The translations under genes were made by a program, and so were the position numbers. DNA of 64,000 bases from an uncultured Bacteroidota bacterium (GTDB lineage: Bacteria; Bacteroidota; Bacteroidia; Flavobacteriales; Flavobacteriaceae): NCBI GenBank assembly GCA_902614065.1, contig CACMJT010000002.1, forward strand, positions 1 through 64,000, read 5' to 3'. Positions within the stretch are counted from its first letter, which is position 1. Every line of letters starts with the position of its first letter. Below the pieces are notes generated by a model that was given only the letters and a program-made list of their open reading frames with translations, made no database searches and had not been told where the DNA came from. Positions 4,763 to 29,684 of the stretch are shown piece after piece.

Positions 4763-6391
4763 ATGAAAAATCTGTTTTTTCTTACTCTAATACTTCTTTT
4801 CGTCTCATGCAACTACAATCTAGTAAACAAATGGGAAAATTATGATGAAAGTGAAGAGATAAAAACTAATGCTACAATTGAAAACAAAAGACTTCAATTT
4901 AAAAGAATTCAGTCCATTTCAAATGACAAAAACCAACTAATTAATGGTTTTGAGAGAGAAATATTCAATTTTTTAGAAAATGAGTATGATTTAACAAAAG
5001 AATTGGTACATGAAAAGTCTATTCCCGAAATTCAACAAAGTGTGATTGATGGGAAATTAACCTACTACAAATTATCACTTTTTTACTTGACAAGAATTTA
5101 CCTAATTGAATTTGATAAAGAAAGCTATTTAAACTCCATTATATCTATAAATAAAAACATCCTGAGGGAAGCAAAAAGTAAAGATAAAATTAAAAACACC
5201 AACATTTATTCTCTTCACGGAATCCCAATTCTCTTGAAGGATAATATAGGTTTTAAAGGACTTCCAACTACAGCTGGCGCACATAGTTTAAAAAATAATT
5301 TTACAGATGATGCATCAATTGTAAAGCAACTTAAAGACAGTGGTGCTTTAATTCTTGGCAAAACTAATTTAAGCGAGTGGGCCAATTATTTCTGTTATGG
5401 ATGTCCTAATGGCTACAGTGCAATGGGTGGGCAGACATTACACCCATATGGGAGAAAAATTTTAGATACGGGAGGCTCAAGCTCTGGCAGTGGTGTATCA
5501 ACCACTTCAAACTTAGCTGCAGCTTCATTGGGATCGGAAACATCTGGATCAATCTTATCACCATCATCAGCAAACTCACTAGTTGGAATGAAACCGACAA
5601 TTGGCAATGTTAGTAGAGCTGGAATTGTACCAATATCGTCAACACTCGATACAGCCGGCCCAATGACCAAGTTTGTTATTGATAACATATTGATTTACAA
5701 TGCAATTAACGATTTTGATCCGCTGGATGATTACTCTGTTGAAAATTATGATATTAGGATAAAAGAAGTTGTAGATAATAAATTAGAAGATTACACAATT
5801 GGCTATTACAAAAGTTTTTATGAAAGAGATTCTCTTTACAAAAATGCAATTGATTTTCTAGTTGAAGAAGGGGTTGAGTTACAAGTTATTGATGCTCCCC
5901 AGATTAGACTTGAGGGTTTCGCAAAAATATTAGATGAAGATATGAGATATGATTTAAGAAGCTATCTATTTTTTTATGGAAACAAGAATCTCAAAGTTGA
6001 AGACATTTCATCAATAATAAAATACAATGAAATGGATTCTGTCGAAAGGGCTCCCTACGGACAAGGAATTTTCAAAAAAATAATTCAAGATACAATGTCA
6101 ATTAATGATTTTGAAGATTTGAAATTTGAGCTTATGAACAAAGGAAATGAGTTCTTTGATATTCCAATGAATAAATACAACTTAGACGCAGTGCTATCAA
6201 TAAACAATTACCATGCTGGGTATGCTGCGATGGCTCACAATCCATGCCTAACAGTTCCCATGAAAGTCAGGAAAAACAATGAGCCGGCGGGCTTAACAAT
6301 TATAGGCAAGTCGTTTCAAGAGCAAAAACTTTATGAAATTGGCTACTTTTTTGAAAAAAAGTACAAGGGAAGAATCCCACCTAAAAACTAA
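4763..6391 (+). CDS. amidase-signature family lipoprotein
   Basis: An amidase-signature enzyme of 542 residues. A lipobox (FVSC, Cys16) and a ~70-residue extension precede the catalytic domain. The catalytic triad can be placed by alignment to the family: Lys159 in GIPILLKDN, cis-Ser239 in GGSSSGSG and nucleophile Ser263 in GSETSGSIL. The Ser-to-Ser spacing of 24 matches that of fatty acid amide hydrolase. This is a periplasmic or surface lipoprotein form of a Ser-cisSer-Lys amidase; the substrate is not predictable from sequence. The spacer after murF is only 2 nt, so it is likely co-expressed, but a cell-wall role is only a guess. It ends 1 nt before the convergent yceI-like gene. Confidence 0.88.
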   Translation: MKNLFFLTLILLFVSCNYNLVNKWENYDESEEIKTNATIENKRLQFKRIQSISNDKNQLINGFEREIFNFLENEYDLTKELVHEKSIPEIQQSVIDGKLTYYKLSLFYLTRIYLIEFDKESYLNSIISINKNILREAKSKDKIKNTNIYSLHGIPILLKDNIGFKGLPTTAGAHSLKNNFTDDASIVKQLKDSGALILGKTNLSEWANYFCYGCPNGYSAMGGQTLHPYGRKILDTGGSSSGSGVSTTSNLAAASLGSETSGSILSPSSANSLVGMKPTIGNVSRAGIVPISSTLDTAGPMTKFVIDNILIYNAINDFDPLDDYSVENYDIRIKEVVDNKLEDYTIGYYKSFYERDSLYKNAIDFLVEEGVELQVIDAPQIRLEGFAKILDEDMRYDLRSYLFFYGNKNLKVEDISSIIKYNEMDSVERAPYGQGIFKKIIQDTMSINDFEDLKFELMNKGNEFFDIPMNKYNLDAVLSINNYHAGYAAMAHNPCLTVPMKVRKNNEPAGLTIIGKSFQEQKLYEIGYFFEKKYKGRIPPKN

Positions 6392-6982: not shown

Positions 6983-8272
6983 TTATTTTTTAGAAATAAA
7001 ATCCAAGGTTAATGCTACCATTGATCTAATTCCTGTTTGCATAGCAGAATCATCTACATAGAAATCTGGGCTGTGATGCAAAACTGTGCGTGGATCAACT
7101 CCTTCTTTTGAACCACCAATAAAGAAATACATACCAGGTATTTCTTGTTGAAAAAAGGAAAAGTCCTCTGCCCCTGTTCGGGCATTTAAAAATATTACAT
7201 TCTCTGGCTTATTAACCCTTCTCAAAGTTGGAAGCATATTTTCATAAAGCTCTGGCTGATTAAAAGTAATTGGGTAGCTTGTTCCATATGTAATTTTAGC
7301 TTCAACATTGTTAGCTTCGGCTAAATTTAAGACGACTTCTTCAAACCTTTTTAATAAAGTTTTTCTCATAGATGGTCTAAGGGTTCTAATTGTCCCAAGC
7401 ATATATAGATCCTCAGGAATTATATTGCTTCTGACTCCACCGTGAATCGCACCAACTGTAATTACTGCAGCAGCTTCTGTCAATTCTAGATTTCTACTGA
7501 CTATTGTTTGAAGAGAGTTAATCATTTGAGCAGCAGTAACAATAGGATCAATTCCATCCCAAGGTCTAGATCCATGCGTTTGTTTACCCTTCAAATCAAT
7601 TCTAAACTCATCAACAGCGGCCATTATACCTTTGGGTCTAACCGCAACATTTCCTACATTAAAACCGGACCCAACATGAAGACCAAAAATTGCATCCACA
7701 TCTGGATTTTTTAAAACACCTTCTTTAACCATCAACTCTGCTCCACCCTCCTCACCTACTGGTGCACCTTCCTCAGCTGGCTGGAAAATAAATTTAACCT
7801 GACCAGGGATTTGATCCTTAAGCTCATATAGAATCTTTGCAGTGGCTAACAAGATAGCTGTGTGCATATCATGGCCACATGCATGCATGACAGGCACCTC
7901 TTCCCCATTATAAACCCCTGTCATTTTGGAAGCCCATGGAATATCAACCCTCTCTTTAATTGGCAATCCATCGATATCTGCCCTCAACCCTACCACAGGA
8001 CCTTCTTTTCCCTCATTAAGGATTGCCACAACTCCTGTTTTAGCAATTCCAATATTGGGTTTATAACCAATTTTTATCAATTCATTTTTAATTCTTTCAG
8101 CAGTCTTAAATTCTCTGTTACTGAGCTCTGCATTTTGATGGAACCAATGCCTGAGTTCAATTATCTCATCAATATTTTCTTCAATTAGTTTTTCAACAGT
8201 GCTATCAAAGTTTTGTCCATTAATTGTAAATGATGCAACTAAAAGAATTATTAAAACAATATTTTTTTTCAT
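6983..8272 (-). CDS. M20D-family amidohydrolase (N-acyl amino acid / peptide hydrolase), secreted
   Basis: A protein of 429 residues with a signal peptide (MKKNIVLIILLVASFTINGQ), so periplasmic or exported rather than cytosolic. M20D (HipO/AbgB-like) metal-site residues are visible: Cys132, His134 and His137 in HACGHDMH; Glu167-Glu168 in QPAEEGAPVGEEGG; His199 in IFGLHVG; and the C-terminal LHHSPDFYVDD. The lid/dimerisation domain includes KQTHGSRPWDGIDPI. The family hydrolyses N-acyl or N-aromatic amino acids and dipeptides; the substrate here is unresolved. It follows the YjbQ gene by 11 nt and precedes the YceI gene by 29 nt on the same strand. Confidence 0.92.
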   Translation of the reverse strand: MKKNIVLIILLVASFTINGQNFDSTVEKLIEENIDEIIELRHWFHQNAELSNREFKTAERIKNELIKIGYKPNIGIAKTGVVAILNEGKEGPVVGLRADIDGLPIKERVDIPWASKMTGVYNGEEVPVMHACGHDMHTAILLATAKILYELKDQIPGQVKFIFQPAEEGAPVGEEGGAELMVKEGVLKNPDVDAIFGLHVGSGFNVGNVAVRPKGIMAAVDEFRIDLKGKQTHGSRPWDGIDPIVTAAQMINSLQTIVSRNLELTEAAAVITVGAIHGGVRSNIIPEDLYMLGTIRTLRPSMRKTLLKRFEEVVLNLAEANNVEAKITYGTSYPITFNQPELYENMLPTLRRVNKPENVIFLNARTGAEDFSFFQQEIPGMYFFIGGSKEGVDPRTVLHHSPDFYVDDSAMQTGIRSMVALTLDFISKK

Positions 8273-8283
8273 AAGTATAAATT

Positions 8284-8691
8284 TTATTCTCCAATTACGG
8301 TAAGCATTAATCTTCTGCTGCTTGCTGAATTTCTATGCTCACAAAGATAAATTCCTTGCCAAGTACCAAAATTAGGTTTTCCATTTGAGACTGGAAAAGA
8401 AATTGATGATCCAATCAAACTATTTTTTATGTGAGAGGTCATATCATCGGTTCCCTCAAAAATATGAGTAAAATAATTTTCATTTTCAGACACCATGTGG
8501 TTGAAATGCGTTTCAAAGTCATCTCTCACAGAGGGATCAGCGTTTTCATTAATTGTTAAACTGGCAGAAGTGTGTTTAATAAATAAGTGTGCAATGCCAC
8601 TCACTTTTGGGATATGATTAATAATTTTGCTTGTAATTAAATGAAATCCACGACTGTAAGGACACAGTATTATTTCTTTTTGAAAAACCAT
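8284..8691 (-). CDS. YjbQ-family protein (UPF0047)
   Basis: A small cytosolic protein of 135 residues from the YjbQ/TIGR00149 family. The diagnostic segments are LFIKHTSASLTINENADPSV, DDMTSHIKNSLIGSS, FGTWQGIYLCEHR and the C-terminal RRLMLTVIGE. Members have a conserved His/Glu-rich pocket; some show weak thiamine-phosphate synthase activity, but the physiological role is not established. It is the first gene of the minus-strand run that continues into the M20D hydrolase, and it diverges from the SRPBCC gene with 32 nt between the starts. Confidence 0.9.
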   Translation of the reverse strand: MVFQKEIILCPYSRGFHLITSKIINHIPKVSGIAHLFIKHTSASLTINENADPSVRDDFETHFNHMVSENENYFTHIFEGTDDMTSHIKNSLIGSSISFPVSNGKPNFGTWQGIYLCEHRNSASSRRLMLTVIGE

Positions 8692-8723
8692 TTACATAAA
8701 TTTAAATATTTTAGTAATCAAAG

Positions 8724-9227
8724 ATGGATAATCTAAAAAAATCTTGGTCTGTTGGATACAAAATGAAGGTTGATTCCAATGTTGATGATCTTTGGAATAT
8801 TATAACAAAACCTGGCCATCTTGAAATGGTTCATCCTTTTTGCAAAGAGAATTACCCAATTTTTTGGGACAAAGAAAACTCGAAAGATGTATTAGTATAC
8901 ACCAACGGAGTAAAATTAATAAGGGAGTTCAAATCGTGGAACGAAAAGCAGGGTTACTCGTTAGAAATTGGTACAAAAAATGGAAGAAAATCACTTGTTG
9001 AGTGGAAAATTTCTACAGAAAATCAAAAAACATATTTGTCGATAAGAGTTTATACTTTTTTTATGAGGGATAGAAATTTAATTCTTTCATTTTTACCACA
9101 TTTTATTTTTATATATCCAAATCTGAGGAAATACTTAAAAAGCGTAATTGGCGGGATAAATTACTACCTACAAAACAAAAAAAGAGTTCCAAGAAATTTT
9201 TTTGGGAGTCATCGTTGGTTCTCTTAA
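8724..9227 (+). CDS. SRPBCC (START-like) family protein
   Basis: A protein of 167 residues with no signal peptide. The N-terminal VDSNVDDLWNIITKPGHLEM is the typical opening of the SRPBCC/polyketide-cyclase-like helix-grip fold, and NGVKLIREFKSWNEKQGYSL and SLVEWKIS provide the strands. The second half holds a hydrophobic stretch (LILSFLPHFIFIYPNLRKYL) used in this family to line a lipophilic pocket or contact membrane. The ligand is unknown. The ATG at 8724 is the only good start. A non-coding gap of 70 nt separates it from the RND operon. Confidence 0.75.
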   Translation: MDNLKKSWSVGYKMKVDSNVDDLWNIITKPGHLEMVHPFCKENYPIFWDKENSKDVLVYTNGVKLIREFKSWNEKQGYSLEIGTKNGRKSLVEWKISTENQKTYLSIRVYTFFMRDRNLILSFLPHFIFIYPNLRKYLKSVIGGINYYLQNKKRVPRNFFGSHRWFS

Positions 9228-20776: not shown

Positions 20777-21675
20777 ATGAAAAAACTATTTACACTTTTA
20801 GCATTAACTATCTCATTTAGTATGAATGCACAAATGAGCGACAATAGCAGTGGCACTTCAGCAACAGGAAGTAATTCCGTAGCAATGGGATATGACACAA
20901 CAGCAAGTGGAAATACTTCCACAGCAATGGGAGGTGACTCAACAGCAAGTGGAGATTATTCCGTAGCAATGGGAAATCGTACAACAGCAAGTGTATATGG
21001 TTCTACAGCAATGGGATATTTTACAACTGCAAGTGGGGCTTATTCTATAGCAATGGGAGCTAGCACAACAGCAAGTGGAGGTTATTCTACAGCAATGGGA
21101 TTAGGCACAACAGCAAGTGGAAGTGGTTCTACAGCAATGGGATATTTTACAATAGCAAGTGATTTTGCTTCTGTAGTAATCGGACAATGGAATTCTTCAG
21201 GGTCTTCTGTTACAAATAATGCTACTTCATTTAGTACTTCAAACACAGCTTTTGTCATTGGAAATGGTACAAATTCAAATAAGTCTGATGCTTTTAAAGT
21301 AATGTTTAATGGTGACACTACAGTAAGCAATGACCTTACAGTTGTGGAGATGTAGTAATTTCATCCGATGCAAGATTAAAGTCAAACATTGTATCTCTTG
21401 GTTCTACACTTCCTAAATTATTACAAATAGATGGTAAGTCCTATGAGATGAAAGGCAAACAAAAGATCGGTGTACTTGCACAAGAGATAAAGGAAGTATT
21501 TCCTGAACTTGTCAGTGAGGACGACAATAAAATGTTAGCAGTTAATTATCAAGGATTAGTGCCTGTACTTATCAATGCATTGAAAGAGCAAGATGCAAAG
21601 ATGAAGGAGCAAGAAAAAAAAATAAATAGATTAGAAAAAATATTGCTTAAATTAAACGAAAATTATGAAGACTAA
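20777..21675 (+). pseudogene. head-repeat adhesin with S74 chaperone domain, broken by a one-base frameshift
   Basis: The first frame (20777-21355, 192 codons) has a signal peptide (MKKLFTLLALTISFSMNAQ), then seven 14-residue YadA-head-like repeats (ASGxYSTAMGxxTT), then SDAFKVMFNGDTTVSNDLTV. It then ends in a stop at 21353. From about 21346 the -1 frame continues without a stop to 21675 and reads GDVVISSDARLKSNIVSLG, then IGVLAQEIKEVFPELV and a coiled coil rich in K and E. This is a complete intramolecular-chaperone (peptidase S74) domain with its SDARLKSNI signature. A single lost base between 21341 and 21346 explains the break, with Asn-Gly expected where the sequence reads gttgtggag. A sequencing error or slippery decoding cannot be excluded. 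The end overlaps the next gene by 11 nt. Confidence 0.85.
20876..21169 (+). repeat. seven exact-length 42-bp tandem repeats in the adhesin head
   Basis: Seven units, each 42 bp, run without gaps from 20876 to 21169. Each carries acagcaatggga and acagcaagtgg with variable bases in between, and encodes 14 residues of head repeat. Period and reading frame are preserved, so copy-number change would not shift the frame. Confidence 0.9.
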
Positions 21676-23208: not shown

Positions 23209-24747
23209 TTATTCAATACCAGGCTGCTTGATTTTATAACCAGCTTCTTTTTTTGCCAAATCAACCATGTTTTTGACATCTTTCAAAAGTTTTTTGGCAT
23301 CATACACAATTCCATCTTTGATTGTATACTTTACGCCACCTACTCTCGTAACATTATTATCATCATCAAGTTTTATAGCACCTGTTCCATACAACACTTT
23401 TAAATTTTCCAGTGGGTTTTCGTCAATCACTATCAGATCAGCAAATTTTCCAACTTCAACAGAACCAGTAAACTTTTCGATTCCCAAGGTTTCAGCACCA
23501 TTTAGGGTAGCTGATTGTATAACCTCCAATGGATGGAAACCAGCTTCTCTCAACAGCTCAAGTTCACGAACATATGCAAAGCCATACAACTGATAAATAA
23601 AGCCTGAGTCTGATCCTACTGTGACTCTTCCACCACGGTTTTTGAATTCATTTAAAAAAATCATCCAGAGTCGGTAATTTTCTTTCCAAGCAACCTCCTG
23701 CTCTGTTCCCCAGTAATGCCAATAAGAACCATGAGAAATTCTACTAGGTGCGTAGAATCCCCACAAACTGGGCAGGGTATAATCATCATGCCACTCAGCT
23801 CGTCTAGCTCTATGTAGATCTCTACTTGCCTCATAAATGTTCAGTGTTGGAGAAATTGTAAAGTCCAAAGAAATTAATTCATTCATTACATTATTCCAGT
23901 GGTCAGAAAAAGGTTCTGCTGCTTGAGCCCACAATTTTCCTGCCTCTTCAAATCTATGCTGCTCATTTTGATAATTATAATTGGGAGGATAATTTTGAAT
24001 AATTCGATTATTAAACAACGCCTCAGGCAAACCATACCAGTGCTCCATAGAAGTTAGTCCTGCCCTAGCAGAATTTAATACGTTCCATTTAACAACATTC
24101 AGTTGTGCATGATGAGCTGTTGATCTCAATCCTATTTTTTTATTTTCTTTAATGGCAGCCTCCATTACTTCTGGAGGAGCACCGAAAAATTTTATCCCGT
24201 CTGAGCCCTCTTTTGCATTGTTTCGAACCCACTCTCTAGCCTCATCAGGTGATTTTACCCTTGAATTAAAGGTTGAAAAAGAAATTATTCTAGGAGCAAT
24301 TATCTCATTCATCTTGCTCTTATTTTTTAATTCTAATTTGAGATTTTGGGAAAGTGATCCACCGGGCTCTCTAATCGTGGTTATTCCATGAGCCATCCAT
24401 AAGTTAAAAACATATTCAGGATTAGCACCCTGAGATCTTCCTCCAATATGACCATGAGTATCTATAAATCCAGGTAAAATATAGCTGCCCTCACAATTTA
24501 TTTCAACACCGCCCTTTAATAACTTTGGTCTTCTATTTTCATTGATTGGAATCCCTGGATAACCAACATTTTGGATTTTTGTAATAATATTTTTTTCAAT
24601 AACAATATCAACCGGTCCAAGTGGTGGTGCTCCTGTACTATTAATTAGTGTTGCACCCCTAAGTATTAACTGTTTATGTTGTTTTTCAAAAATTTGAGAT
24701 AGGGAAACAACGGGGAATAAAACTAAAATTAAAATTATTTTTTTCAT
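23209..24747 (-). CDS. secreted metal-dependent amidohydrolase
   Basis: A protein of 512 residues from the ATG at 24747 (MKKIILILVLFPVVSLSQ signal); an in-frame start at 24780 would extend into the tRNA-derived repeat and is rejected. Amidohydrolase-superfamily metal-site motifs are DTHGHIGG, RSTAHHAQLNVVKW and VTVGSDSGF. The beta-sandwich part is split between the ends (LPGFIDTHG, and SVEVGKFADLIVIDENPLEN near the C-terminus). It resembles imidazolonepropionase-like or prolidase-like exported members; the substrate is unknown. Its start codon is only 7 nt from the first tRNA-Val 3'-end copy (24755), so its native promoter has probably been displaced by the insertions to the right. Confidence 0.88.
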   Translation of the reverse strand: MKKIILILVLFPVVSLSQIFEKQHKQLILRGATLINSTGAPPLGPVDIVIEKNIITKIQNVGYPGIPINENRRPKLLKGGVEINCEGSYILPGFIDTHGHIGGRSQGANPEYVFNLWMAHGITTIREPGGSLSQNLKLELKNKSKMNEIIAPRIISFSTFNSRVKSPDEAREWVRNNAKEGSDGIKFFGAPPEVMEAAIKENKKIGLRSTAHHAQLNVVKWNVLNSARAGLTSMEHWYGLPEALFNNRIIQNYPPNYNYQNEQHRFEEAGKLWAQAAEPFSDHWNNVMNELISLDFTISPTLNIYEASRDLHRARRAEWHDDYTLPSLWGFYAPSRISHGSYWHYWGTEQEVAWKENYRLWMIFLNEFKNRGGRVTVGSDSGFIYQLYGFAYVRELELLREAGFHPLEVIQSATLNGAETLGIEKFTGSVEVGKFADLIVIDENPLENLKVLYGTGAIKLDDDNNVTRVGGVKYTIKDGIVYDAKKLLKDVKNMVDLAKKEAGYKIKQPGIE

Positions 24748-24754
24748 AATTTTT

Positions 24755-24776
24755 GTGGGTGATACTGGACTCGAAC
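24755..24776 (-). repeat. att-like core, copy A (partial tRNA-Val 3' end)
   Basis: GTGGGTGATACTGGACTCGA begins this 22-bp core, which matches the 3' end of the intact tRNA-Val at 29313-29334 with one difference (C for T at position 17). Beyond it the sequence stops resembling a tRNA. To its left is the amidohydrolase start and no copy of the 72-bp module, so this is the outer chromosomal junction. Confidence 0.8.
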
Positions 24777-24882
24777 TCACATCTTAAGCTATTCATTTTC
24801 AAAAGCTTAATTTTTTAGGGTGTTCCCCAGGGGAACACTTTATGTTCCCCGTAGTATCACTTTCACTTAAACAAAACTAATG

Positions 24883-24919
24883 AAAATTAATGTAGACAGA
24901 TTCTGTCCACATTAATTTT
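24883..24919. terminator. 17-bp hairpin with T run in the cassette end
   Basis: AAAATTAATGTAGACAG (24883-24899) pairs with CTGTCCACATTAATTTT (24903-24919), with one A-C mismatch and loop att. It is followed by T residues on the plus strand and mirrored by A residues on the left, so it could stop transcription either way. A weakened copy with three mismatches lies at 27114-27150. It would insulate cassette genes from outside transcription, or it could be a recombination structure. Confidence 0.6.
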
Positions 24920-24984
24920 TAAATTTTAACATTATCTTATTATTTTAAAAACATTTGATTCACATTACAGTCATATTATCTAAT

Positions 24985-25821
24985 GTGTTTAAAAAAAGAC
25001 TAATAGATTTAGTTGTTCTTTCAGATATTCACCTAGGTACACGAGGGTGCAGAGCTGATGAATTAATTAATTATTTGAGAACTATCAAACCTAAAAAAAT
25101 CATTCTAAATGGTGATATAATTGATATATGGCAGTTCAAAAAAAAGTACTTTCCAAAATCTCATTTGAAAGTAATAAGAATACTCTTAGATTTTTTATCT
25201 AAAGGAACCAAGATTTATTATTTACCAGGAAATCATGATGAAGTTCTTAGGAAATTTAATGGTTATGGAATGAAAAATTTTAAAATTAGTAATAAAGCAG
25301 TTTTAAAATTAAATGGTAAAAAAGCTTGGTTTTTTCATGGTGATGTATTTGATATAACAATGAAGTATTCTAAATGGGTCGCAAAATTAGGAGGAATAGG
25401 ATATGATTTTTTGATTAGATTAAATTTTACTGTTAATCGTTTTAGGGAATGGAGGGGTAAAGGAAAAATATCATTTTCTAAATACATAAAATACAAGGTC
25501 AAGGAAGCAGTGAAATATGTCAATCAATTTGAAGATATTGCTCTCGGGATAGCTCGTGAAAATAATTATGATTTTGTTGTCTGTGGACACATACATCAAC
25601 CAGTTATTAGGGATCAAATTATTAAGGGAAAAAAAATAACATATTTGAACTCTGGAGATTGGATAGAAAATTTAACTTCACTGGAATACAACAATGATAG
25701 TTGGAGTTTGTTCGAATATGATCCTAATAATTTCAAAAATCTGAAAAAAGAAAGAAAATCAACAATTGATAAATCAACAAACGAACTTTTTGAATCTATG
25801 CTTAAAAATTTTAAATCATGA
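24985..25821 (+). CDS. LpxH-like metallophosphoesterase
   Basis: A protein of 278 residues from a GTG at 24985 (MFKKRLIDLVVLSDIHLG), matching where family members start. An in-frame TTG at 24955 would add ten hydrophobic residues. Calcineurin-like metal motifs are complete: LSDIHLG, NGDIIDIW, PGNHDEVLR, FFHGDVFD and VCGHIHQP. This branch, related to UDP-2,3-diacylglucosamine hydrolase, is often found in flavobacteria beside a glycosyltransferase, as here, suggesting work on a surface glycolipid or lipid-linked sugar phosphate. Its stop overlaps the glycosyltransferase ATG by 4 nt. It lies inside a tRNA-bounded cassette, so it may be an extra rather than the housekeeping copy. Confidence 0.85.
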   Translation: MFKKRLIDLVVLSDIHLGTRGCRADELINYLRTIKPKKIILNGDIIDIWQFKKKYFPKSHLKVIRILLDFLSKGTKIYYLPGNHDEVLRKFNGYGMKNFKISNKAVLKLNGKKAWFFHGDVFDITMKYSKWVAKLGGIGYDFLIRLNFTVNRFREWRGKGKISFSKYIKYKVKEAVKYVNQFEDIALGIARENNYDFVVCGHIHQPVIRDQIIKGKKITYLNSGDWIENLTSLEYNNDSWSLFEYDPNNFKNLKKERKSTIDKSTNELFESMLKNFKS

Positions 25822-26876
25822 AAATTTTATACGCAGTTCAGTCAACAGGAAACGGACATATAATTAGAGCAAATGAATTAATTAAAATTTTTAAAAATCG
25901 AGCTGAGGTTGATGTGTTGATTAGTGGAACTCAATCATCATTAAAATTGAAACATGATATAAAATATCAATATAAAGGCTTGAGTTTTGTATTTGGAAAA
26001 AAAGGAGGAATTGATTTTTTCAAGACATTTAAATTATTCAATCCAATAACATTTATTAGAGAGATTTATAATTGTCCAGTTAACAAATACGATTTAATAA
26101 TTAATGATTTTGAACCTATATCTGCTTGGGCATGTTTATTTAAAAGAAAAAAAAATTGTATTGCATTGAGTCATCAATTCTCTTTATTATCACATAAAGT
26201 ACCAAAAGGATCAAAAGTGAATCTGATTCAGTCATTTATTTTAAAATATTATTCGCCTATTAAGAAAGGCTATGGATTTCATTTTAAAAAATATGATAGA
26301 AATTTTTTTTTCCCAATAATTAAATCCAACCTAAGAAATAAAGAAATTAAAAATGGTTCTCATATAACTACATATTTACCATCATATTCAGATGAGTATC
26401 TTTATGCTATATTTTCAAAAATATACAAGCAAAATTGGCATGTTTTTTCCCAACATACAAAGCAGAAGTATAGGAGAGGAAATATTTCATTTTTTCCTAC
26501 AGGATATGAGGAGTTTGAAGAAAGTTTATTATCGTGTTCAGGAGTAATATGTAATTCTGGTTTTGAAACTCCATCTGAAGCACTATTTCTTGGAAAAAAA
26601 TTACTGGTTATTCCAATGAAATATCAATTTGAACAACATATGAACGCAGTTGCCTTAGACAAAATGGGAGTTAAAGTTCTAAAAACACTTAATAAAAACT
26701 CAATTAGTAAGATTAGAAAATGGATTAAAAAGGTTAATCTAATTAGGATGACTTATCCTGATGAAAATAAGAAAATCATTGATAAAATTTTAATTGATTT
26801 TATAAGAGAAAAATCAAATAAAAAAATATCTAATAATTTAAAATACTTTACAAACCAAAGGGATACAATACTCTGA
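25818..26876 (+). CDS. glycosyltransferase (MurG-like GT-B family)
   Basis: A protein of 352 residues without signal peptide. The N-terminal MKILYAVQSTGNGHIIRANE is the nucleotide-sugar GT-B opening seen in MurG-like and MJ1255-type proteins. The C-terminal half has VICNSGFETPSEALFLGKKL followed by PMKYQFEQHMNA, the donor-binding loop of that fold. The tail is lysine-rich (REKSNKKISNNLK), which may help membrane association. It is coupled by ATGA overlap to the LpxH-like phosphoesterase, so the two probably act on one glycolipid. Base use looks noticeably AT-rich beside the amidohydrolase to the left, though this was not measured. Confidence 0.85.
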   Translation: MKILYAVQSTGNGHIIRANELIKIFKNRAEVDVLISGTQSSLKLKHDIKYQYKGLSFVFGKKGGIDFFKTFKLFNPITFIREIYNCPVNKYDLIINDFEPISAWACLFKRKKNCIALSHQFSLLSHKVPKGSKVNLIQSFILKYYSPIKKGYGFHFKKYDRNFFFPIIKSNLRNKEIKNGSHITTYLPSYSDEYLYAIFSKIYKQNWHVFSQHTKQKYRRGNISFFPTGYEEFEESLLSCSGVICNSGFETPSEALFLGKKLLVIPMKYQFEQHMNAVALDKMGVKVLKTLNKNSISKIRKWIKKVNLIRMTYPDENKKIIDKILIDFIREKSNKKISNNLKYFTNQRDTIL

Positions 26877-26913
26877 GAAAATGTTAGGTTTCCAATTACA
26901 AAAATTAAATTTT

Positions 26914-26985
26914 CACTAGTTCGAGTCAAAATTTGGGAACACTTTTTAGTTTTGTAAAGCGTTGATAATCAGTGTGTATTTTTTT
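26914..26985 (+). repeat. 72-bp cassette right-end module, copy B
   Basis: Starts CACTAGTTCGAGTC and ends in a T7 run right before the tRNA core at 26986. It aligns to 29241-29312 over equal length, with a few mismatches and two compensating one-base gaps. Shared features are TTTGGGAACACTTTT, GTTTTGTAAA and CGTTGATAATCAGTGT. GGGAACACTTT also occurs in the 167-bp left-end module, so the two ends share a sub-motif. The rest of the gap 26877-26913 shows nothing. Confidence 0.85.
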
Positions 26986-27007
26986 GTGGGTGATACTGTA
27001 CTCGAAC
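26986..27007 (-). repeat. att-like core, copy B (partial tRNA-Val 3' end)
   Basis: A 22-bp copy of the tRNA-Val 3' end differing from the intact gene at two positions (T for G at position 14, C for T at position 17). It is the junction between the two cassette units. It sits in the same orientation as copy A and the tRNA, as needed for excision between copies. Confidence 0.8.
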
Positions 27008-27152
27008 TCACATTTTAAGCCATTCATTATCAATAGCTTAATTTTTTAGGGTGTTCCCAAAGGGATCACTTTATGTTCCCACTAGTATCACTCAAATTAA
27101 TACAAAACTAATGAAAATAAATGTGGACAGATTCTGTCTAAATTAATTTTTA
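26986..27152 (+). repeat. 167-bp structured end module, copy B
   Basis: Gap-free match to 24755-24921. The outer GTGATACT/AGTATCAC pairing and the GCTTAA hairpin survive. The GTGTTCCC arm faces GGGATCAC here, so that stem is one pair weaker, and the final hairpin (27114-27150) has three mismatches. The differences fall mostly in loops and in unpaired stretches. The rest of the gap, 27153-27233, is AT-rich leader sequence with no other feature seen. Confidence 0.85.
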
Positions 27153-27233
27153 TAAATTTCTGATATGATTAAGTATTTGTTTGCTCTAAGTCTTTTTTGG
27201 TCAATTGATTATTTTAATGTTTATATTTAAAAT

Positions 27234-29099
27234 GTGAAAAGAATTGTATTTACTATTTTTCTAATATTAATCAATATTAATCTTGTAAGATCTCAGGGTG
27301 ATTTAGATTATAACCAAGCCATGAATTTTTTCTTTAGTGATCTAGAAATATTAATGAATGGTAATGATGATGGTTTTTCATTCGGTGATATTTTAAGAGA
27401 ATTTAATGGAAAAAATTTAATGCCTGATGCATCAATTAAGGTTCTTGAAAATAAAGATGGTTCTCTTATTATGGAATATGGTCCTCAGTTTATTATGCAA
27501 ACACAGTTTGCTACATTTGATTACTATTCTAAAGGAGCCTTTGATAAACAATATTTTTTTCCAAAAAAAGACAATTTTGCAACTAATGTAGTAGATAAAA
27601 TTTTTTATGGCTCAAATAATTCATTTAAAAGTAAAGGAAACATTTTTAAAATTATGAGCATATTTAGTTCTATAAATGTTGATGAAAATGAGTTTGAAAA
27701 TTATTTTCAAAGAATCAAATATCAAATAGAAAATAGATTGAATTTATATAATTATGCTGAATATGAATTTGATAATGTAGATTTAGATAAGTACAATGTA
27801 AACTACGGTAAAGTTAAAATGCCATATGTTAGTGGGAAAAGTTATGTTAAGAAAAATATAATATATGGATCAGAATCATTCAGTGATTACAAATATCCTG
27901 TAGTATCAATTTTTTTAAGTAAAACTAAAAAATACGATGATAAAGGGAATATTTTAAATTTTATTGTTTTGGAGTCTGAATCAGTAGTAAAATCATTTGA
28001 AATTACAGATAAAAGGATTGATCAGTTTATTGTTAATGGTAATGATTTTAGAAAAATAAATACATATCAACTTGATCAAATGATTGATGTATTTTTTGAT
28101 GATTGTGAAGCAAATAATATTTTCATTAATAGAGATCAAAATATATTAACTGAATTTAAAGAATTAGAAGGAACAACCTTGGCTTTAGCTTACGGAATAG
28201 AAAATGATAAGAATATCGCTATTCAAGTTGATCCAGTTGAATGGGATAAAGCTTCTTTGGCAAGAAAATGGTATACAATTTATCATGAGCTTGGACATGA
28301 TGTATTAAATTTATACCATGGTGATGGAGGAAAAATGATGTTTAATTTTGCTGATATTGACTATTCATGGAATCAATTTTTTGAGGATAAGAAATTCATG
28401 TTTGATATCTATAAAAAGAAAAATAATCTCAATGATGAAACTCTAACCAATAAAGCTGAAAGTAAAATAAAATCTAATTATGAAACTGAAGATAATTTAG
28501 ATTTAAACTCAACTCAAATTAAAGAATATAAGAATGATTCTGAGCTTTCTAAGACAACTTTATTTTATGACAGTGAGTGGAGAGGTTGTAATGAGGACAA
28601 TGCAATTTATTATCGAGAGGTTTATTTTGATAAATCTGGATCACCAGTGGGTGAAATTCGAGATTATTACTATAAATCAAAAAAAATACAATCGGTTATT
28701 GAGGGAGCTATTAGAGTAAATAAATTTGATGATAGAAAATCCATATTTATAGGAAAAGCTACTGGATATGATGAATTAGGTAATATAACATTTGAAATGA
28801 ATATCAAGAAAAAAACTTTATTTTATGATGAAAATAGAATGGGTTGTGATAAAGATGATGCATATAAATATAGAGTATTTTATCAAGATGAATTATCAGG
28901 AAGACCAATTGGAGAAATTAGAGATTACAATATTGAAACAAATAAATTAATAGCAATTATTCCAGGTGCAAATAAAATTGATGAATTTCAAGATTCGAAA
29001 TCTACTTTTTTTGGTATTATAAAAACATATGATTCTAATGGACAATTAAGTCGTCAATTCGATTGTGATGGTGAAGGTAATTGTGAAGAATTAGATTAA
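27234..29099 (+). CDS. secreted putative zinc metallopeptidase with two C-terminal repeats
   Basis: A protein of 621 residues from a GTG start (the overlapping ATG at 27232 hits a stop at once). The signal peptide is MKRIVFTIFLILININLVRS. The centre carries YHELGHDVLNLYHGDGGKMM: an HExxH zinc motif at 351-355 with His362 as a possible third ligand. After a charged linker come two copies of an ~85-residue repeat, at about 441-523 and 527-610, each opening TLFYD and containing GEIRDY and a graphics-like YDxxG turn similar to MORN-type repeats. No T9SS sorting domain is recognisable. It is the sole cargo of cassette unit 2. Close relatives are uncharacterised, so protease activity is inference from the motif alone. 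Confidence 0.7.
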   Translation: MKRIVFTIFLILININLVRSQGDLDYNQAMNFFFSDLEILMNGNDDGFSFGDILREFNGKNLMPDASIKVLENKDGSLIMEYGPQFIMQTQFATFDYYSKGAFDKQYFFPKKDNFATNVVDKIFYGSNNSFKSKGNIFKIMSIFSSINVDENEFENYFQRIKYQIENRLNLYNYAEYEFDNVDLDKYNVNYGKVKMPYVSGKSYVKKNIIYGSESFSDYKYPVVSIFLSKTKKYDDKGNILNFIVLESESVVKSFEITDKRIDQFIVNGNDFRKINTYQLDQMIDVFFDDCEANNIFINRDQNILTEFKELEGTTLALAYGIENDKNIAIQVDPVEWDKASLARKWYTIYHELGHDVLNLYHGDGGKMMFNFADIDYSWNQFFEDKKFMFDIYKKKNNLNDETLTNKAESKIKSNYETEDNLDLNSTQIKEYKNDSELSKTTLFYDSEWRGCNEDNAIYYREVYFDKSGSPVGEIRDYYYKSKKIQSVIEGAIRVNKFDDRKSIFIGKATGYDELGNITFEMNIKKKTLFYDENRMGCDKDDAYKYRVFYQDELSGRPIGEIRDYNIETNKLIAIIPGANKIDEFQDSKSTFFGIIKTYDSNGQLSRQFDCDGEGNCEELD

Positions 29100-29240
29100 A
29101 TAAAATATGCATTATTAGCATTATATATTATGCAAAAAAAGTGTCATTTTATTTTGTAAAAAAATCATCACCTAAATCAATAAATTGCCTAATCACTATG
29201 GGTGGTAAATGAAAAAGGTCATAAAAAATATAAAAATTCT
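29100..29240. other. AT-rich non-coding stretch, nothing recognised
   Basis: This lies between the metallopeptidase stop and the 72-bp right-end module. A weak repeat of gcattat elements at about 29109-29139 precedes an A run, but arms pair for only about five bases, so I do not call a terminator. Confidence 0.4.
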
Positions 29241-29312
29241 CACTAGTTCGAAACGAACATTTGGGAACACTTTTGGTTTTGTAAATCGTTGATAATCAGT
29301 GTATATTTTTTT
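29241..29312 (+). repeat. 72-bp cassette right-end module, copy C
   Basis: Same module as 26914-26985, here directly abutting the intact tRNA-Val gene. It begins CACTAGTTCGAAACGAAC and ends in a T7 run. The TTTGGGAACAC and TTGATAATCAGTGT segments are identical to copy B. Its presence at both unit right ends but not left of copy A shows that it belongs to the cassettes and not to the chromosome. Confidence 0.85.
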
Positions 29313-29313
29313 G

Positions 29314-29388
29314 TGGGTGATACTGGATTCGAACCAGTGACCCCTACCCTGTCAAGGTAGTGCTCTGAACCAACTGAGCTAATCACCC
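29314..29388 (-). tRNA. tRNA-Val(GAC)
   Basis: A complete cloverleaf on the minus strand. The acceptor GGGTGAT pairs with ATCACCC, the D-arm is GCTCAGTTGGTTCAGAGC, and the anticodon stem CTACC/GGTAG has loop TTGACAG (anticodon GAC at 29351-29353). The T-arm is CTGGTTCGAATCCAG. The discriminator is A and CCA is not encoded. It is the intact copy of the sequence whose 3' end is repeated at 24755 and 26986, and is thus the insertion target. Confidence 0.95.
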
Positions 29389-29459: not shown

Positions 29460-29684
29460 TTACTTCCCGTTTTGAATAGGATCAGTTTCGGGCATCAATT
29501 TATTTAAAATAGTATAAACAGGACAAAACTTAGTAATTGGACTAATAACCTGTAATGCACCTACTGCAATTACTATCCATAAAAAATTGAAATTAGATGT
29601 TAGGTAAGATAACCCAACACCAGTAAGGTAAAGCATACCACATATAGCGTCGTGAGCTCTTATTTTTGAAATATTCTTTTTCAT
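29460..29684 (-). CDS. DUF2892 (YgaP-like) small membrane protein
   Basis: A protein of 74 residues with two membrane segments (about 16-30 and 32-52) and the family signature ISPITKFCPVYTILNKLM near the end. DUF2892 proteins are inner-membrane proteins sometimes fused to or encoded with rhodanese or sulfur-handling proteins; none is adjacent here. Only one cysteine is present, in FCPVY, which is family-typical. It is a single gene on the minus strand, upstream of the tRNA-Val gene. Confidence 0.88.
   Translation of the reverse strand: MKKNISKIRAHDAICGMLYLTGVGLSYLTSNFNFLWIVIAVGALQVISPITKFCPVYTILNKLMPETDPIQNGK

Follow-up and report, generated by a model that had tools for sequence, protein, structure and literature searches.

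The window analyzed here, a stretch of 64,000 nucleotides from contig CACMJT010000002.1 of an uncultured Flavobacteriaceae bacterium, carries two small gene units stacked in tandem behind a tRNA-Val(GAC) gene, which was called by ARAGORN with the concurrence of Rfam. A plus-strand search for the core GTGGGTGATACTGGATTCGAAC, located at the 3′ end of this tRNA gene, returned an exact copy at 29313 and two further copies at 24755 (one mismatch) and 26986 (two mismatches); the whole 64 kb holds no other copy with up to five mismatches on either strand. Successive cores are 2,231 and 2,327 bp apart, which confirms the two core-bounded units proposed in an earlier note on this DNA. Each unit opens with a left-end repeat of ~167 bp (88.0% identity between units; BLAST E value of 4.7e-57) and closes with a right-end repeat (88.8% identity over 79 bp; E value of 1e-22). 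Both shared modules had been anticipated, the left one with its length of 167 bp and the right one as a 72-bp rather than a 79-bp repeat. Alignment of unit 1 to unit 2 revealed similarity confined to these end modules, so the cargo is wholly different, again as proposed. Unit 1 matched the Pfam families Metallophos and Glyco_trans_1_3, and unit 2 yielded a sub-threshold metallopeptidase match and nothing else. The Pfam scan of the cargo found no recombinase in unit 1 or unit 2, in agreement with their description as integrase-free, and the two Phage_integrase matches of this genome (a 1.36-Mb assembly in 24 contigs, 87% complete) sit on contigs other than that of the window. The features of the locus are as follows.

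29313-29388, minus strand: tRNA-Val(GAC) gene (ARAGORN, Rfam), attachment target, its 3′ end being the putative attB core
24755-26985, plus strand: unit 1, distal cassette, 2,231 bp, encoding a calcineurin-like phosphoesterase and a glycosyltransferase
26986-29312, plus strand: unit 2, tRNA-proximal cassette, 2,327 bp, encoding a single 621-aa protein, a putative secreted metallopeptidase
24755-24776, plus strand: core copy 1, left att of unit 1
26986-27007, plus strand: core copy 2, junction of unit 1 and unit 2
29313-29334, plus strand: core copy 3, within the tRNA-Val gene
24955-25821, plus strand: unit 1 cargo gene, calcineurin-like phosphoesterase (Pfam Metallophos), presumably LpxH-like
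25818-26876, plus strand: unit 1 cargo gene, glycosyltransferase (Pfam Glyco_trans_1_3)
27234-29099, plus strand: unit 2 cargo gene, 621 aa (sub-threshold match to DUF4344 putative metallopeptidase; HELGH motif seen by eye)

The end modules share an ordered internal anatomy. Across a junction, an arm motif (GGGAACAC) is followed by a consensus site for integration host factor (IHF), a T-run, the core, an IHF-like site, arm motifs in both orientations, an inverted core half-site, and a palindromic terminator-like hairpin, after which the cargo begins. This is the layout of a lambda-type attP, as known from lambda and CTnDOT. The IHF sites were located with the sequence WATCAANNNNTTR, which we take to be the consensus. 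The individual elements map as listed.

24755-24921, plus strand: left module of unit 1, P′-arm-like (core, IHF-like region, arm motifs, inverted core, hairpin)
26986-27152, plus strand: left module of unit 2
26907-26985, plus strand: right module of unit 1, P-arm-like (arm motif, IHF consensus, T-run)
29234-29312, plus strand: right module of unit 2
26955-26967, minus strand: IHF consensus, right module of unit 1
29282-29294, minus strand: IHF consensus, right module of unit 2
27028-27040, plus strand: IHF consensus, left module of unit 2 (one-mismatch versions in unit 1)
24820-24838, no strand assigned: arm motifs of the left module of unit 1, GTGTTCCC at 24820 and GGGAACAC at 24831
27051-27058, minus strand: arm motif GTGTTCCC, left module of unit 2
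26935-26942, plus strand: arm motif GGGAACAC, right module of unit 1
29263-29270, plus strand: arm motif GGGAACAC, right module of unit 2
24854-24860, minus strand: inverted core half-site GTATCAC, unit 1
27085-27091, minus strand: inverted core half-site GTATCAC, unit 2
24883-24919, no strand assigned: palindromic terminator-like hairpin between att site and cargo, unit 1
27114-27150, no strand assigned: palindromic terminator-like hairpin, unit 2

We counted these motifs in 14 left and 20 right modules from the window and its relatives (genomes are designated by G numbers), leaving out the modules of G446, G452, G454, and G459. The GGGAACAC motif occurs in 16 of the 20 right modules, whereas GTGTTCCC and the GTATCAC inverted core are each found in 12 of the 14 left ones. 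Searched on both strands of the window, GGGAACAC appears at five places, every one within the modules. The IHF consensus is exact in 19/20 right modules, with 0.04 matches expected per module from its frequency in the window (22 in 64 kb) and a match in 356 of 20,000 shuffles. On the left side, it is exact in six modules (in G022 at a different position), and the remaining eight carry it with one mismatch. The tRNA 3′-end core is duplicated at both ends of the units, repeated arm-type motifs flank it on both sides, and IHF sites lie between core and arms, the last two features being defined by sequence. Judged on these grounds, the ends are similar to a lambda-type attP for which the tRNA 3′ end would serve as attB, and the motifs are predicted to be bound by proteins. 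The simple pattern of integron attC sites (R″ and R′ boxes) is absent from all 14 left and all 20 right modules, as opposed to what defines integron cassettes and clusters of attC sites lacking integron integrases (CALINs). The left module does have a strong predicted single-stranded DNA fold (z of −6.6), but two-sided changes affect merely 2 of 51 predicted pairs, the inverted core fails to track a host-specific core base (base 7, below), and there is no attC pattern; the folded single-strand reading is kept only as a possibility.

Two positions of the core bear on the crossover point. Base 14 varies among left copies and is invariant among tRNA copies, so the exchange would occur to its left. 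Base 7 of the tRNA gene is G in the genus of the window and C in other genera, and the left copies match their hosts (G in 8 of 10 within the genus, C in 7 of 7 elsewhere; Fisher P = 0.002, uncorrected for descent). We read base 7 as probably lying within the overlap region. The two exceptions, G001 and the distal unit of G013, have C within a G host and are possible footprints of arrival from a C host, with mutation as the alternative.

The same ends recur at the same tRNA gene in other genomes. A 246-bp junction query matched 14 of 60 genomes, the window's own included, two of them (G010 and G021) by the tRNA core or short pieces alone; the modules are thus present in 12 of 23 genomes of the window's genus and in none of the 37 outside it. 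A scan of GTDB r220 with the right-module pattern, covering one genome for each of 84,980 species, returned 17 loci, all adjoining a tRNA-Val(gac) gene, in genomes from uncultured Bacteroidetes, Cryomorphaceae, or Flavobacteriaceae, which we take from their isolate names to be marine. Eleven of these loci belong to the window's genus and six lie outside it. Four of the six fall in a second genus, where the modules occur in 8 of 21 genomes (nine match, G451 by the core alone), and the other two, G062 and G063, are in neither genus list and probably belong to further genera. In total, 22 genomes (12 plus 8 plus G062 and G063) carry these ends, a count from which the three genomes matched by core or short pieces only were left out. 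A covariance-model search of 397 family genomes with stricter filters recovered two genomes of the genus and two weak matches elsewhere, which have no tRNA nearby and no integrase-like open reading frame (ORF) by eye and were taken as chance. Contamination of single-amplified genomes is unlikely to explain the distribution: one unit meets unlike flanks at the core in separate assemblies, and records of metagenome-assembled genomes carry it too.

Comparison of these loci provided evidence for movement. G010 has an empty site, as the earlier note had envisaged: window positions 24455-24754 joined directly to 29313-29388 align with it over 376 bp at 99.7% identity without a gap. The tRNA-Val loci of G021, G014, G018, and G451 also carry no module; the first three do not match the left flank of the window and G451 was not compared, so that these loci are no direct proof of an empty site. 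In all nine relatives of the genus with unit 1 at tRNA-Val, the identity of unit 1 exceeds that of the alignable flank (99.8% versus 72.2% in G001, 99.4% versus 68.1% in G003, 98.4% versus 71.4% in G017, 99.6% versus 90.6% in G013, 97.8% versus 91.9% in G007, 96.3% versus 90.3% in G009, 91.2% versus 66.8% in G015, 86.2% versus 71.3% in G022, and, for the two pieces in G004, 92.5% and 96.3% versus 72.7%). In G063, the right end of unit 1 (107/108 bp) lies beside a tRNA-Val gene that is just 84% identical to that of the window. Unit 1 is distal in the window and tRNA-proximal in the array of G013. Of the 14 left cores read, 12 border chromosome in about nine unlike contexts, with each unit starting at the core, and some end modules of different species are 99 to 100% identical. 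At the sequence level, these comparisons establish the recent transfer of the whole unit 1 cassette between species. The checks set out in the earlier note that could be made on genomes (other units, an empty site, and cargo variation) came out in favor of its reading as a mobile family.

Twenty-two unit-like stretches were tabulated, 16 of which have a core copy at both sides; these bounded units span 985 to 2,895 bp, keep both ends, and contain one or two ORFs each. The remaining six (G007, G008, G015, G065, G454, and G446) have a lost, diverged, or unrecognized left end, and their left limits were set by choice. The ORFs of G446 look chromosomal and were not counted as cargo, and the G008 stretch includes most of a fatty-acid-hydroxylase gene that is possibly not part of the unit. 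G002, with a right end only, was not tabulated; the unit of G004 is split across two contig ends, and the G063 sequence begins inside a unit. Different cargo in other units, another expectation of the earlier note, was indeed found, with nine types in all: the unit 1 gene pair (9 of the 22 stretches), the unit 2 protein (window), a caspase-TPR protein (G013), a 368- to 379-aa protein without a Pfam match (G060 and G008), one of 477 aa that likewise lacks a Pfam match (G064), a DUF2927 protein (G061 and G065), a GmrSD/HNH protein (G062), a CobW-type GTPase (G452 and G454, and in two frames in G459), and a T5orf172-type nuclease (G459). Cargo genes lie on either strand, and two-unit arrays occur in the window, G013, and G459. 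PADLOC, run on nine cargo proteins with those of unit 1 left out, gave two clear matches (NsnA in G062 and the caspase in G013) and a weak one. PHROGs matches of 10 cargo proteins were restricted to nuclease, ParB-like, phosphoesterase, and unknown-function families, one of them strong (phrog_2598, 9e-65, for the GmrSD-like protein). Scanning of the cargo types detected no integrase or other recombinase, and their Pfam matches did not include a relaxase family, with no search aimed at relaxases.

The genome G016 offers a view of how unit 1 may have arisen. Its unit 1 gene pair forms the last two of four adjacent genes (L252, G016:C53, 1801-4421), and the 8 kb read contain neither a tRNA nor a module. 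Homology spans only unit 1 bases 157-2132, starting near the stop codon of the gene before the pair and ending 10 bp beyond the last stop. In G015 (L076, G015:C30), the same four genes abut the right module and the tRNA-Val gene, and the left module was not found; this arrangement could be an intermediate or a later rearrangement. Because of how these genes are arranged in G016 and G015, unit 1 appears to be a pair of chromosomal genes that acquired an attP. The unit 1 glycosyltransferase was matched in 13 of the 23 genus genomes; of its 14 matches, 3 are homologues with 49% identity, including a second copy in G007.

A single tRNA site, conserved ends, varied cargo, an exact empty site, and recent interspecies transfer of units free of a recombinase all emerge from comparing the genomes, and we consider it highly probable that the units are minimal non-autonomous integrative cassettes mobilized in trans by a tyrosine integrase. 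Each cassette would consist of one lambda-type attP (~250 bp; right module, core, and left module) and the one or two cargo genes that it closes into a circle. The integrase, probably delivered in trans by a phage or another transient element, would bind the arm and core sites with IHF-type bending of the DNA, and the circular cassette would recombine with the 3′ end of tRNA-Val(GAC). The core copy of the element would stay distal and the tRNA gene would be kept intact, so that the next cassette would insert at the tRNA and the array would grow; DNA would, moreover, have to pass between cells. Rather more tentatively, and with the odds somewhat against it, one may picture an integron-like cassette economy built from phage parts: a shared pool of attP circles with one or two genes would serve a single tRNA-Val(GAC) gene in several flavobacterial genera, the recombinase would not be kept by the hosts but delivered by an infecting element, and new cassettes would arise by fitting an attP onto chromosomal genes.

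Several observations weigh against the reading as cassettes mobilized in trans. The left end is lost or was not found in G007, G008, G015, G002, and G446 and was only partly recognized in G065 and G454, and the unit of G017 has a 22-bp deletion. In G022, the most diverged member of the family, the right module lacks both the exact IHF consensus and the arm motif, and the left module lacks the arm motif and the inverted core. The modules share descent, so the motif counts are not independent. Finally, the 46 host-group genomes, pattern scans of IMG/VR, phage records, and plasmids yielded no helper integrase, and no circular form or excision was seen in the assembled sequences.

The strongest alternative, to which we give a small share of the probability, is that the units are remnants of larger tRNA-Val elements that lost their integrase and transfer genes by deletion and that move, if at all, in cis beside an autonomous element, like the cis-mobilizable elements (CIMEs) of streptococci. 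The units do keep their att sites and have no integrase or transfer genes; an attL-cargo-attR structure without an integrase fits the definition, classical CIMEs are described, in the parts of the source consulted, as 1.2 to 13 kb long and arranged in tandem (PMC7563491), and some units are clearly decaying. However, no autonomous element with these ends was found, and none of the unit-bearing contigs of the 46 genomes has a Phage_integrase match today, with no search made for relaxases, although autonomous neighbors may have existed in the past. The preservation of both ends around one or two ORFs in the 16 bounded units and the very recent movement of unit 1 between species also argue against remnants. 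Much less probable is that homologous recombination, e.g., after DNA uptake, swaps cargo between end modules and that unequal crossing-over makes the tandems. Modules of 79 and 167 bp, some of them 99 to 100% identical between species, could seed such exchange, but the empty site is exact to the core, units in about nine unlike contexts start there although a 22-bp core would be too short to direct this by homology, and the place of a unit in the array differs between genomes.

The search for the helper covered 46 incomplete genomes (23 of the window's genus, 21 of the second genus, G062, and G063). By length and score, their tyrosine recombinases are Xer-like except for five, namely, four integrases of 346 to 353 aa and 45 to 74% mutual identity located beside tRNA-Asn or a copy of its end (G003, G017, G456, and G455) and one beside tRNA-Met (G013). 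A co-occurring recombinase specific to the units, which the earlier note had looked to, therefore did not come to light. G452 additionally has a decayed pair of integrase fragments beside tRNA-Asn, and a recombinase fragment at a contig end in G063 was taken as part of a Xer gene. As candidate helpers, the tRNA-Asn and tRNA-Met integrases were rejected: their five loci, taken with that of G452 (~95 kb altogether), contain GGGAACAC/GTGTTCCC only a single time. Serine recombinases were absent from the 23 genus genomes. Scans of IMG/VR with patterns for the right module, the left module, and the core in both host versions found no attP of this kind. Of 25 matches in one of the core scans, 20 lie within a tRNA-Val(tac) gene and 1 more is apparently the same gene cut by the stretch end; among the other four (L174, L159, L166, and L170), L174 was examined and shows no integrase-like ORF by eye in 3.4 kb of its 42.8-kb contig. 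Queries with the unit 1 glycosyltransferase and the unit 2 protein found nothing in IMG/VR, and the module is absent from phage records and plasmids. The genomes are incomplete (87% for the window's own and 55 to 85% for others in the genus), and the absence of a helper is therefore not proof; the recombinase would have to come from outside or from an unassembled part of the genome. The relatives thus bear out a mobile family without a recombinase of its own, as the earlier note had suggested, whereas its integrase acting in trans remains a prediction. That the host XerC/XerD pair moves the cassettes is very doubtful, even though Xer-like proteins are the sole tyrosine recombinases found in most hosts and the two of the window's genome, the only ones compared with NCBIfam, score best against XerD (302.8 bits; cut-off, 329.6) and XerC (285.8 bits; cut-off, 335.2), both below the equivalog cut-offs, since Xer sites are short and dif-like, without arm sites or IHF, as opposed to the ~250 bp conserved here, in which arm motifs and the IHF consensus accompany a tRNA core.

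Returning to cassettes mobilized in trans, we compared them with known systems. Phage-inducible chromosomal islands (PICIs) and their minimalist counterparts (PICMIs) are phage satellites with their own integrase and phage-derived genes; the units have no integrase, and the PHROGs matches of the 10 cargo proteins are confined to the families given above. CIMEs of streptococci, as far as described in the sections consulted, are likewise att flanked, free of an integrase, and arrayed in tandem at a target gene's 3′ end, with classical members of 1.2 to 13 kb bearing cargo (PMC7563491, PMC5704250); they are described as deletion products of integrative and conjugative or integrative and mobilizable elements that an autonomous element moves in cis, whereas here no parent or present neighbor was found and the end modules are standardized. 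Two additive flexible genomic islands (fGIs) with tRNA-fragment repeats, fGI1 of "Candidatus Actinomarinales," for which intergenus cassette transfer is reported (PMC7771536), and fGI-2 of "Candidatus Methylopumilus" at tRNA-Lys (PMC10872708), resemble this locus in having small cassettes at tRNA genes of streamlined aquatic bacteria with repeats of the tRNA end. Compared by description, the available text on both mentions neither conserved attP-like modules common to unrelated cassettes nor a test for a missing integrase. At the ssrA site of Dehalococcoides, according to the excerpts seen, 15 of 31 islands have no integration module and were possibly mobilized with neighbors (PMC3146451); this site also holds tandem islands at a single RNA gene, many without an integration module, but 16 of the 31 have one, where none was found here, and the vcrABC islands are ~12 kb long versus 1 to 3 kb. 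Integron cassettes and CALINs, in the portion of the source at hand, share one-gene cassettes, growth of arrays from a fixed point, and, for CALINs, an integrase from elsewhere (PMC11389934), in contrast to the tRNA-gene site, the phage-attP-like ends, and the lack of a simple attC pattern here. Tycheposons are also tRNA-anchored cargo carriers in aquatic bacteria, described in the text accessed as 4 to 200 kb long with a tyrosine recombinase (PMC10872708), whereas the 16 bounded units are 985 to 2,895 bp long and have none.

Integrase-free att-flanked elements (CIMEs and additive tRNA islands) are thus known already. What appears to be new is a standard attP on one- or two-gene cassettes, a bare unit recently moved between species, and no autonomous relative in sight. 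In the available parts of the open-licence literature, outside of which most subscription papers lie, we found no description of this cassette family. To that extent the statement of the earlier note that it knew of no described class with these end modules in Bacteroidota holds for the family itself, but stacked tRNA-end cassettes and integrase-free att-flanked elements have been described in other phyla, as far as these sources go (PMC7771536, PMC10872708, PMC3146451, PMC7563491). The cassettes would represent a concrete, sequence-defined vehicle of gene flow for small-genome bacteria that keep almost no mobile-element machinery. Mobilization in trans predicts a helper that can be searched for, and the mechanism lends itself to direct tests through the empty site, the attP, and the array order. 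Some of the cargo resembles anti-phage or cell-surface genes (the GmrSD-like nuclease, the caspase-TPR protein, and the glycosyltransferase) and, if the functions suggested by the protein families hold, may bear on how populations swap defenses.

Other observations were made around these loci. An integrase-bearing tRNA-Asn island in G003 (L128, G003:C13, 742-9575) is bounded at 742 by another copy of the tRNA end and includes genes resembling, by eye, those of a type I restriction system. Around tRNA-Asn or its copy (L129, L249, L250, and L251), many small neighboring genes share a near-identical leader peptide (MKKLILLLFIPL...) and differ afterwards; these clusters may be another cassette-like system. 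A few kilobases from the tRNA-Met integrase of G013 (L130, G013:C1), a pair of small genes (64 aa and 70 to 76 aa) is duplicated at 1512-1917 and 5031-5418. The flanks of the two units in the window are ordinary chromosome, with an amidohydrolase gene at 23209-24747 and a gene for a YgaP-like membrane protein at 29460-29684. In G009, a gene for what by eye is a DEAD-box helicase (L067, G009:C12, ~7082-8761) separates the YgaP-like gene from the conserved gene that follows it; the window has no such gene at this place. Short-repeat proteins with the near-equal leader MKK[LI]FTLLALTISFSMN are encoded at 20777-21355 of the window and at 6634-8217 of L251, where the gene adjoins tRNA-Asn in another genus.

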